DNA from: an uncultured Bacteroidales bacterium
GTDB lineage: Bacteria > Bacteroidota > Bacteroidia > Bacteroidales > Paludibacteraceae
Reading direction: 5' to 3'
Length of the DNA stretch: 50,845 nt
Assembly: GCA_902798965.1 (NCBI GenBank)
Contig: CADBYS010000021.1
Location: 1 to 50,845, forward strand
Position 1 is the stretch's first letter. Each line of letters opens with the position of its first letter. The notes beneath the pieces were generated by a model. It made no database searches and was not told the origin of the DNA. It saw only the letters and a list, made by a program, of their open reading frames with translations. The position numbers and the translations under genes are program-made. Below are positions 2,775 through 46,520 of this stretch, in pieces.

Positions 2775-4379
2775 ATGAAAGCTCGCTTTATAAGTATTCT
2801 GACATTGGCTTTAGGTCTGTGCACGAATGTGCACGGAACAGTATATGAGATGACGGTCACGAACACGGAGACCTGGGTGAACACGGTGTTAGCCGGCAGG
2901 CAGGTTGGTGACACGATCCATTTCAGTGTGCCCGTGATTGTGAACCGCAACTACGGTTACAGCGGATTCTCGGGGTTGACGATGAGTGTACGGCGTATAT
3001 TTTCGCCCACGAACCAGGAGATTCCCCTGTCGCCGGAGTATCAGAACCTGCTGACGCTGAACAGTCGTGCGGGGTTCAACCTGCAAGGCTGCGGTTATCA
3101 CCGTAACGGCGAACGCCTGCACGACCTGAAAGCCGTGGTGACAGGAAGTCTGAAAGTAAAATACATATCCGGCAAATGGGAAGGCAACAACACCCGCGAG
3201 GCGATAGAGACGAACGTGCCGAGCGTGGATATGAACGGCACGCACAACGTGTTGGTGTGCGGCGCGAACCTTGAGTACTACCTGGCGCAGAACTTAGGCA
3301 CGGGTTACGGTCCGGACAACCAGACGGAGCACAACCGCCAGAAGACCAAGGTCTGCACAGCCTTAGCGCGCATCCATGCCGATGTGTATGGTTTGGTGGA
3401 GATAGAGCAAGGGCAGGTGGCACTGGCAGAGATAGCTGATTACCTGACCTCCGCCACGGGCAGTCACTACAGTTACGTGGATGACAAAGGTAGCCCCGAC
3501 GGATCATATACCAAGTCGGCATACATCTACAACAGCGACCGCATCCAGCCCGTAGGCGAACTATCAAGTAACAACCAAGGCGTAAAGAAACGCAAGTTTG
3601 CACAAGGGTTCATCCTGCTGGAGAACAACGAGCGGTTCATATACAGCATCAACCACTTCAAGGCAAAGTCCGGCTCAGGTACAGGCTTGGATGCCGATCA
3701 GGGTGACGGACAAGGCATATTCAACCACGCCCGCGTCCTGGAAGCACGCAGCGTGCTGCAGAGTCTGAGCAGATATCAGAACTACTACAAAGATAACGAT
3801 GTGCTGATCATGGGTGACCTGAACGCCTACGCCAAGGAAGACCCGATACGCGTATTCACCGACGCGGGGTTGTATGACCTGCATCGGTATTTCCACGAAG
3901 ACTCCAGTTATTCGTACGTTTACGGCGAGCAGGCAGGATATCTCGACCACGCGATAGCCAACCCCTCGCTCATCGAGCAGGTGACGGGAATGGCCGTATG
4001 GCACGTGAACTCCGATGAGTCGGACGAATATACGTACGACAAGTCGTATGACCAAACAGTGTTCCGCTACAGCGATCATGACCCCGTGCTAGTGGGGTTG
4101 CGTCTGGATAGCACGAAGTCGTCGTCGGCCGTCGTGGAGAACCTGATTGAGCAATGCCAAATAGGTCTGATTGACGGGCAGACGTACCTGATGAACGTAG
4201 GCGAAATGGGTGAGGAGAACGGCTACTACGAGATCTACGGTATACGCGGCGAGCAGGTACAAGGCGTGACGGTGATCGAGGATTCACCCTGCCTGATAGG
4301 CGAAGGGTTGCCGGGCGGCGTATATCTGGTGCGCATATACTATGCGGGCAAGACACGGACAATGAAGATGCTTAAATAG
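2775..4379 (+). CDS. Secreted endonuclease/exonuclease/phosphatase family protein with T9SS sorting tail
   Basis: This 534-residue protein starts with a signal peptide (MKARFISILTLALGLCTNVHG). Residues about 25-130 form an N-terminal beta domain. Residues about 155-445 carry the endonuclease/exonuclease/phosphatase fold, with motifs in order: GLVEIEQG, INHFKAKSG, MGDLNAYAKEDP, DHAIANPSL and YSDHDPVLVGL. These supply the metal-binding Glu/Asp/Asn and catalytic His residues, as in large extracellular nucleases of the ExeM/NucH type. The last 80 residues end PGGVYLVRIYYAGKTRTMKM, which fits a T9SS type A sorting domain, so export through SprA (27586) is expected. The stop codon abuts a GTCGAAA repeat. 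DNA is the likely substrate by family, but another phosphoester cannot be excluded. Confidence 0.85.
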   Translation: MKARFISILTLALGLCTNVHGTVYEMTVTNTETWVNTVLAGRQVGDTIHFSVPVIVNRNYGYSGFSGLTMSVRRIFSPTNQEIPLSPEYQNLLTLNSRAGFNLQGCGYHRNGERLHDLKAVVTGSLKVKYISGKWEGNNTREAIETNVPSVDMNGTHNVLVCGANLEYYLAQNLGTGYGPDNQTEHNRQKTKVCTALARIHADVYGLVEIEQGQVALAEIADYLTSATGSHYSYVDDKGSPDGSYTKSAYIYNSDRIQPVGELSSNNQGVKKRKFAQGFILLENNERFIYSINHFKAKSGSGTGLDADQGDGQGIFNHARVLEARSVLQSLSRYQNYYKDNDVLIMGDLNAYAKEDPIRVFTDAGLYDLHRYFHEDSSYSYVYGEQAGYLDHAIANPSLIEQVTGMAVWHVNSDESDEYTYDKSYDQTVFRYSDHDPVLVGLRLDSTKSSSAVVENLIEQCQIGLIDGQTYLMNVGEMGEENGYYEIYGIRGEQVQGVTVIEDSPCLIGEGLPGGVYLVRIYYAGKTRTMKMLK

Positions 4380-4407
4380 TTGAAAGTCAAAAGTCGAAAG
4401 TCGAAAG
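4377..4407 (+). repeat. GTCGAAA-type heptamer repeat (family A)
   Basis: TAGTTGAAAGTC followed by AAAAGTCGAAAGTCGAAAGC. It starts at the stop codon of the nuclease gene and fills nearly the whole gap to ligA. Same right end (GTCGAAAGC) and same internal CAAAAG variant as the copies in ligA and the giant gene. Confidence 0.85.
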
Positions 4408-4413
4408 CAGGCA

Positions 4414-46275: not shown

Positions 46276-46341
46276 AATTGACGATTTGACGATTGACAAT
46301 TGACGATTGATTGTCCGATTGATCATTATTGACGATTGTCA
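46276..46341. repeat. GATTGAC-type repeat in the duplicated fragment
   Basis: AATTGACGATTTGACGATTG, then further GACAATTGACGATTGATTG and ATTGACGATTGTCAAC. Same family as the array at 12410-12546. In the parent gene the same place holds a TCGATTTG repeat. Confidence 0.75.
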
Positions 46342-46474
46342 ACGGCTCGCCGTTCATCTCGAAGCGGAGCTCACCTACCCTATCACTTTGGATCGTCAGG
46401 AAGTAGTACGGCTCATCGTCAATCATAAGCGGCTCTGCCACCGCTGTCAACTCATCGCCAACATACACCTTGAT

Positions 46475-46520
46475 GCTTTCGACTTTCGACTATTTTGGAT
46501 AATTTTGGGTAATTTTTGAC
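46475..46520 (-). repeat. Family A repeat joined to an AAATTAC-type repeat
   Basis: Minus strand: an AAATTAC-type repeat (46520-46498, identical to 6547-6569), then CAAAA, then TAGTCGAAAGTCGAAAGC (46492-46475). The family A part is the edge of the duplicated fragment. Confidence 0.8.

Follow-up and report, generated by a model that had tools for sequence, protein, structure and literature searches.

What kind of process places one seven-base word, in short arrays of a preferred length, at many unrelated positions of a single genome, both between genes and in frame within genes for conserved proteins? The question is raised by a stretch of DNA of 50.8 kb, referred to here as the window, from the genome G000 (2.85 Mb in 51 contigs, 90% complete). 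Nine copies of a GTCGAAA element had been listed in a preliminary description of the window, and all nine are found where it placed them. Matches to the 14-mer with up to two mismatches number 22 in the window, against 0.34 expected, a count reached by none of 100 shuffles. The left end TAGTC, given as shared by most copies, is present in seven (TAGTT and AAGTC occur once each), and the right end GTCGAAAGC, likewise claimed for most, closes all nine. The internal variant CAAAAG was found in five of the nine, so that its attribution to most copies is fair, though not strong. Six copies do lie in coding frames, three in ligA and three in an open reading frame (ORF) of 3223 aa. Two copies, although correctly located, have to be redrawn: the one at 4936 is interrupted by a G+C-rich insert of about 36 bp and its right part reaches 5004, and the one at 18966 has four units, one of them decayed (GAAAAAA). 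The features of the window are:

4377..4408, plus strand: cassette 1, four units; the upstream gene uses its TAG as stop codon
4414..6546, plus strand: ligA, NAD-dependent DNA ligase, with three in-frame cassettes (Pfam, NCBIfam, gene call)
4646..4677, plus strand: cassette 2, in frame in ligA (site 1), common to the congener G007
4937..5004, plus strand: cassette 3, in frame in ligA (site 2), split by a nested insert
4953..4990 (ends approximate), plus strand: nested G+C-rich insert of about 36 bp within cassette 3, an element inside an element
5695..5724, plus strand: cassette 4, the in-frame copy at ligA site 3, where G007 carries a palindromic insert instead
10372..10416, plus strand: array of another heptamer, AAAGGTG
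18966..18997, plus strand: cassette 5, with a decayed third unit, lying between genes for BatD and a TPR protein; missing in G007
35685..45356, minus strand: ORF of 3223 aa with three cassettes, no identity assigned (gene call)
36012..36043, minus strand: cassette 6, in frame in the 3223-aa ORF
36093..36124, minus strand: cassette 7, in frame in the 3223-aa ORF
37614..37645, minus strand: cassette 8, in frame in the 3223-aa ORF
46196..46225, unstranded: array of another heptamer, GGTTACG, a unit also seen at ligA sites of congeners
46475..46492, minus strand: cassette 9, two units, bordering a duplicated fragment of the 3223-aa ORF
47036..47066, unstranded: array of another heptamer, GTGAAAG

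The TAG of cassette 5 doubles as the BatD stop codon. The insert nested in cassette 3 is partly self-complementary, with an unexceptional folding energy of -7.5 kcal/mol (shuffles -5.4, sd 1.9). The duplicated ORF fragment lies in 46106-46492 and comprises 138 bp that are 92% identical to 36013-35876; its homology begins at the cassette, much as it would if recombination had had its edge there. Because it borders this fragment, the copy at 46475 is possibly no independent insertion. No Rfam family was found at threshold within the window.

The exact 14-mer has 182 matches in G000 (86 forward and 96 reverse), and the reversed control has none. Arrays were surveyed in 826 kb, that is, the window and 40 further stretches that were partly picked around known matches, which biases densities upward. 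From 90 candidates 71 strict arrays were kept, the 19 dropped being two-unit arrays with mismatches, some of them chance matches or other words. Unit number is two in 10 arrays, three in 3, four in 44, five in 10 and six in 4, and several of the two-unit arrays are, to judge from their contexts, four-unit cassettes with a decayed unit. GC follows the array directly in 52 of 71; the base preceding the first unit is A in 69, and TA precedes it in 40. With four units in 44 of the 71, three in only 3 and a GC end in 52, the element is a discrete cassette of about 32 bp, not an open-ended slippage series, and no open-ended series of lengths from a local origin is seen, given the mode of four and the shared end.

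The dispersed element of about 32 bases put forward in the preliminary description is thus recovered in its preferred length and right end. Descent from one master is not supported: the 44 four-unit copies show nine combinations of the G/A variant, which may fall on any unit (G-G-G-G in 16, G-A-G-G in 13, G-G-A-G in 7), and with variant positions scattered in this way a single master copy was rejected. GTCAAAA is the commonest variant unit (46 of 279 units, at any of the four positions), whereas GTTGAAA occurs once, an asymmetry that disfavours plain CpG decay after insertion.

Some cassettes are not of the simple form. The right end GCCTAATTA was seen, with up to two mismatches, in 7 of 29 intergenic and 2 of 42 genic copies (e.g. 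L098:10549, L049:5408 and L091:16466), and by eye its GCCTAA forms a 4-bp inverted repeat with the left TTAG. There may therefore also be an extended form of the cassette bounded by short inverted ends, and this repeat would suit a transposition model. Composite inserts were also noted, in which GTCGAAA or GACAAAA units stand on both sides of a brief segment of GACCG...CTCAAAG type that often looks like a hairpin (L040, L042, L096, L320, L321).

According to Markov-model gene calls made for this work, with no published annotation, 42 of the 71 arrays are genic and 29 intergenic. Genic copies are sense in 39 cases and antisense in 3, while 9 intergenic copies are co-oriented with both neighbours, 13 opposed and 7 mixed (39:3 versus 9:13, Fisher p 1.2e-5). 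The statement that GTCGAAA always lies on the sense strand is true of the nine window copies relative to the neighbouring ORF, yet it fails genome-wide outside genes, and the strong sense bias predicted for a mobile element is restricted to the genic copies of G000. This confinement suggests selection on the encoded peptide, the strand preference being a filter on what the protein tolerates; transcription-linked or strand-specific insertion was rejected, as it finds no support in the orientations of the intergenic copies. In a second genome, G065, six genic copies assigned by longest ORF are 3 sense and 3 antisense, so that other genomes may not share the strong bias of G000; two of these three antisense copies lie in an ORF of hydrophobic look, judged by eye and not by membrane prediction.

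The reading frames of the sense genic copies of G000 divide 26/6/7. The argument that every frame yields one cyclic peptide, and that insertion is tolerable unless TAG is read, proved right, none of the seven genic copies in the TAG-reading frame carrying the preceding TA. Conversely, the left-end TAG serves as the stop codon of the upstream gene in 7 of the 29 intergenic cases. Among the 39 sense genic copies are in-frame arrays in the conserved genes for LigA, LeuRS, LepA, PrmA and DapB. Hosts above an NCBIfam cut-off include LigA, LeuRS, LepA, DapB, GluQRS (with the array at the gene start), FolC (with one antisense genic copy), signal peptidase I and PrmA (in one model). The CinA host passes the cinA_nterm cut-off and fails that of full-length PRK00549, and a match to IOR alpha falls under its NCBIfam cut-off.

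The 14-mer is present in 24 of 61 genomes searched, all of this genus, and the other 24 genera of the order in the sample have none. Congeners carry 0 to 78 matches (13 of the 36 searched have none), and G000, G007 and G022 have the most. Named loci that share the element, with about 73-86% nucleotide identity to parts of G000, are labelled uncultured Bacteroidales or Paludibacteraceae, many from ruminants.

LigA loci were read in 30 genomes (G000 and 29 congeners) of the 39 with a LigA match, the words being identified by eye. Across these 30 loci two LigA loops, at sites 1 and 3, act as slots. Site 1 holds arrays of GTCGAAA, GGTTACG, GGACAAA, GTACAAA-like or GGCGAAA units, other text, or nothing; site 3 holds arrays of GTCGAAA, GCGATTA, GGTTAGT, GTACAAA, GGTTACG or GAACCAA-like units, or else palindromes or other text. 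Arrays of the other heptamers in these loops often have about four units, and mosaic arrays of related units are seen both here and in G000. In L070 and L076, site 3 carries arrays of period 9 (CCTAGNNNN, by eye), not period 7. At site 2, only L062 among the 29 other congener loci has a long loop, of other sequence. In an alignment with E. coli LigA, sites 1 and 2 correspond to gaps and site 3 is of equal length, which implies that cassettes both add and replace sequence. Small selfish repeats may thus be reshaping loops of essential proteins.

The check proposed earlier does find sites that hold a copy in one genome and lack it in a relative, both in the comparison with G007 and between the closer pair G065 and G066 (87-95% identity in aligned stretches). 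The G007 comparison covered 1.11 Mb, about 77% identical in the window's orthologues; 22 of the 71 arrays aligned, 26 had no match in the G007 sequence compared and 23 were one-sided. Read by eye, six of the 22 share the array (L042 in part), 15 do not and one is spurious (L089:14255). The copy at 18966 is absent from G007 between the BatD and TPR genes, L093:10895 is a replacement of equal length, and at L081:12622 GTCGAAA stands at the same place and in the same phase as a GTTGAGA-like array in G007. Eight arrays were read between G065 and G066, of which three are shared, one has another unit and four are absent or replaced. GTCGAAA faces GCCGAGA at L319:1051, equal in place, phase and length and without a gap, L319:2434 is a replacement with 27 additional bp, and L320:987, the cleanest site, adds 33 bp, a length divisible by three, and shows no edge repeat of 3 bp or more. 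The clean empty sites expected of a mobile element are accordingly represented by L320:987, the one truly clean insertion, whereas elsewhere local sequence is replaced; species-level relatives are too diverged for short junction homology to be read. Target duplication of 3 bp or more is lacking at L320:987, the other sites being replacements or too diverged. Searches for further empty sites returned divergent, repeat-filled patches and no clean GTCGAAA insertion in a close-pair comparison of the named loci and, among the within-genome paralogue matches listed, mostly other repeats and one duplicated fragment.

The reading we prefer, with a probability of roughly 0.45, is that a four-unit selfish cassette spreads by copy-and-replace, is kept where it does little harm and is later homogenised. 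Four 7-bp units with their ends, about 32 bp, would be copied to new places and persist only between genes, at gene ends where TAG can act as the stop, and in permissive protein loops, in which every frame encodes one hydrophilic peptide. Our best guess for the copying step is template switching by short homology between arrays: a stalled strand might anneal to an existing array, copy about 30 nt and return, at the cost of some local sequence. The units would afterwards be homogenised by slippage and by conversion between arrays, such that the genome-wide word shifts from species to species. Template switching explains replacement, mosaics and the change of word in place, but leaves the GC end and the constant number of four units without explanation; the relatives compared revealed no donor-recipient event.

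Ordinary slippage, in which arrays grow in place from a local heptamer under a general bias towards period 7, is an unlikely account of the whole, even though several observations agree with it. Period 7 is the commonest in the 826 kb, with 108 runs against 1 in the Markov control and 0 to 20 runs for the other periods (4-13 and 15), and heptameric repeats are described as over-represented in many bacteria in the part of the survey by Rehm et al. (2015; PMC4692102) drawn on here. At L320:1559 a shared array has three units in one genome and four in the other, one clear length variant of a whole unit, indicating that slippage acts on arrays once present; the outcome named earlier as favouring slippage, variable unit numbers without empty sites, thus occurs in part. 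Against slippage as the origin, one word with about four units and one GC end stands at many unrelated places in one genome, and three-unit copies are rare (3 versus 44). The same preference extends to other words. Unit number peaks at four in G000, G007, the ligA loci and a small sample from G017 (4 of 8 arrays), with three and four tied in G014 and only three arrays obtained from G008; G014 and G017 are members of the genus with period-7 arrays of other words and no GTCGAAA match.

A dedicated enzyme, whether a heptamer-adding reverse transcriptase akin to telomerase or else a transposase, RAYT or integrase, might instead make or move the cassettes, and the preferred length and end would agree with this, as a machine reading a short template would explain the change of unit throughout an array. 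One such activity is on record, DRT10 being described as making 9-nt tandem repeats off an RNA template (PMC12632851). RAYT-like genes are indeed multi-copy in G000 (10 matches at about seven loci), and reverse transcriptases of family PF00078 are matched in the array-carrying G015 and G018. We nevertheless consider this explanation doubtful. PF00078, a profile that may miss divergent enzymes, has no match in the three genomes richest in the element, G000 (90% complete), G007 (95%) and G022 (88%), and is present in G008, which has no GTCGAAA match. G017 has no match to the RAYT-like protein, yet carries 8 arrays of other heptamers in 60 kb, a case that bears on heptamer arrays in general, G000 itself having RAYT-like genes. 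Reverse transcriptase and RAYT were both rejected as drivers, for neither tracks the arrays across congeners. The RAYT-like gene that was examined (L035:658-1692) matches NF047646 with 42 bits, below the cut-off of 80, and is flanked by its own tandem ACTCGGCAT...ATGCCGAG palindromes. Moreover, the cassette shows no clear target duplication, no stable hairpin and no palindrome with terminal inverted repeats: two cassettes fold with -1.9 and -3.8 kcal/mol (z -1.3 and -2.1), forming only internal mini-hairpins of 4 bp.

Selection for a functional motif, such as a regulator site, an uptake signal or a chromosome organiser, could account for the high copy number and for the copies just downstream of stop codons, but is very unlikely with a word that varies between congeners and is lacking in 13 of 36, with no orientation bias outside genes and with copies deep within coding frames.

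A 24-mer scan of one genome per species, in which the GC end was built into the query and is therefore no evidence, returned at least 106 stretches. Among the 80 listed, 23 titles do not name Bacteroidales or Paludibacteraceae and 13 lie outside Bacteroidota. The matches listed include Flavobacterium, with some isolates, and, as metagenome-assembled genomes (MAGs), Planctomycetes, Armatimonadetes, Acidobacteria, Patescibacteria, a cyanobacterium and Kiritimatiellae; as all 13 non-Bacteroidota matches listed are MAGs, contamination is possible. Despite these other-phylum records, arrival of the arrays by DNA exchange between species, as opposed to spread within genomes, is highly improbable, the flanks being orthologous at about 70-95% identity with the array patch alone differing, and copy number being concentrated in single genomes. 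Phage carriage was rejected, the GC-ended 24-mer being found in no viral contig. A looser 29-mer gave 30 viral stretches, many of which repeat a few contexts, with 4 to 11 uninterrupted units and GC following in 1 of 30; fixed length and GC end are hence not general to GTCRAAA arrays, and the cassette form, though not the word, may be particular to this genus.

Beyond the copy-and-replace reading, a more far-reaching idea, which we hold only tentatively and think rather less likely than not to be right by some distance, is that this genus has a sequence-blind process which takes the heptamer prevailing in a genome, joins about four units of it into a cassette and writes the product over permissive sites, loops of essential enzymes among them. 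If it were true, short selfish repeats would rewrite protein loops again and again, words would swap in place across species, and the number four, as in the Xanthomonas heptamer, would reflect the machine and not the sequence.

We know of no settled answer to why bacteria favour period-7 repeats or how such words spread. This genus makes the question testable: copy number runs from zero through a few to many among its members, one protein slot can hold different words, and arrays of more than one word most often have four units. Outside Rickettsia too, core enzymes (DNA ligase, a tRNA synthetase and elongation factor 4) take repeat insertions, which offers a route for loops of conserved proteins to change in steps of about ten residues and not by point changes. 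Neither GTCGAAA cassettes nor LigA slots were found described in the literature searched, which lay largely outside subscription journals.

Among known systems, REP elements with RAYT transposases are dispersed palindromes of 20-40 bp. The likeness lies in short dispersed repeats and in the RAYT-like genes of this genus; unlike them, GTCGAAA arrays are not palindromes and do not track RAYT-like genes. STRR (short tandemly repeated repetitive) is the name given to sequences of Calothrix. These resemble the present arrays in being heptanucleotide arrays with several versions of the unit, a likeness of type and not of compared sequence (heptanucleotides: PMC4692102). DRT10 is similarly a bacterial machine making tandem short-repeat DNA; it differs in its 9-nt repeats and antiviral role, with no genomic insertion reported in the parts of that paper used here (PMC12632851), and G000 has no PF00078 match.

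Closer parallels exist among dispersed heptamers. In Xanthomonas, GGGAATC forms more than 180 arrays per genome, most of four units (Rehm et al., 2015; PMC4692102). As far as the sections of that paper cited here go, this repeat and GGGGAYT of Nostoc share with GTCGAAA the 7-bp unit and a length and sequence that vary between close relatives; they are G-rich, treated as G-quadruplex formers and mainly intergenic, whereas GTCGAAA is not G-rich, with four units still commonest and 42 of 71 arrays called genic. TAACTGA direct repeats, dispersed in Beggiatoaceae, cyanobacteria and some Bacteroidetes, are likewise patchy across phyla, mixed with other heptamers and subject to 7-nt indels between strains (MacGregor, 2015; PMC4679880). 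According to the portions of that study cited here, in the main species most of them stand immediately upstream of a start codon, and stops in all frames of the forward strand leave few of them genic; GTCGAAA arrays do not show this placement, 42 of 71 being genic and 7 at stop codons. Rickettsia palindromic elements (Ogata et al., 2000), as outlined in a review (PMC2229807), stand in frame in conserved genes, and are alike in being small, both genic and intergenic, and tolerated by the protein; they differ in being palindromic with 12-bp terminal inverted repeats, which the tandem array of about 32 bp does not have. Built of head-to-tail 7-bp units in sequence with an excess of period 7, as heptameric SSRs are, the GTCGAAA cassettes are best filed as a variant of the known heptameric repeats that, inside genes, behaves like the Rickettsia palindromic elements.
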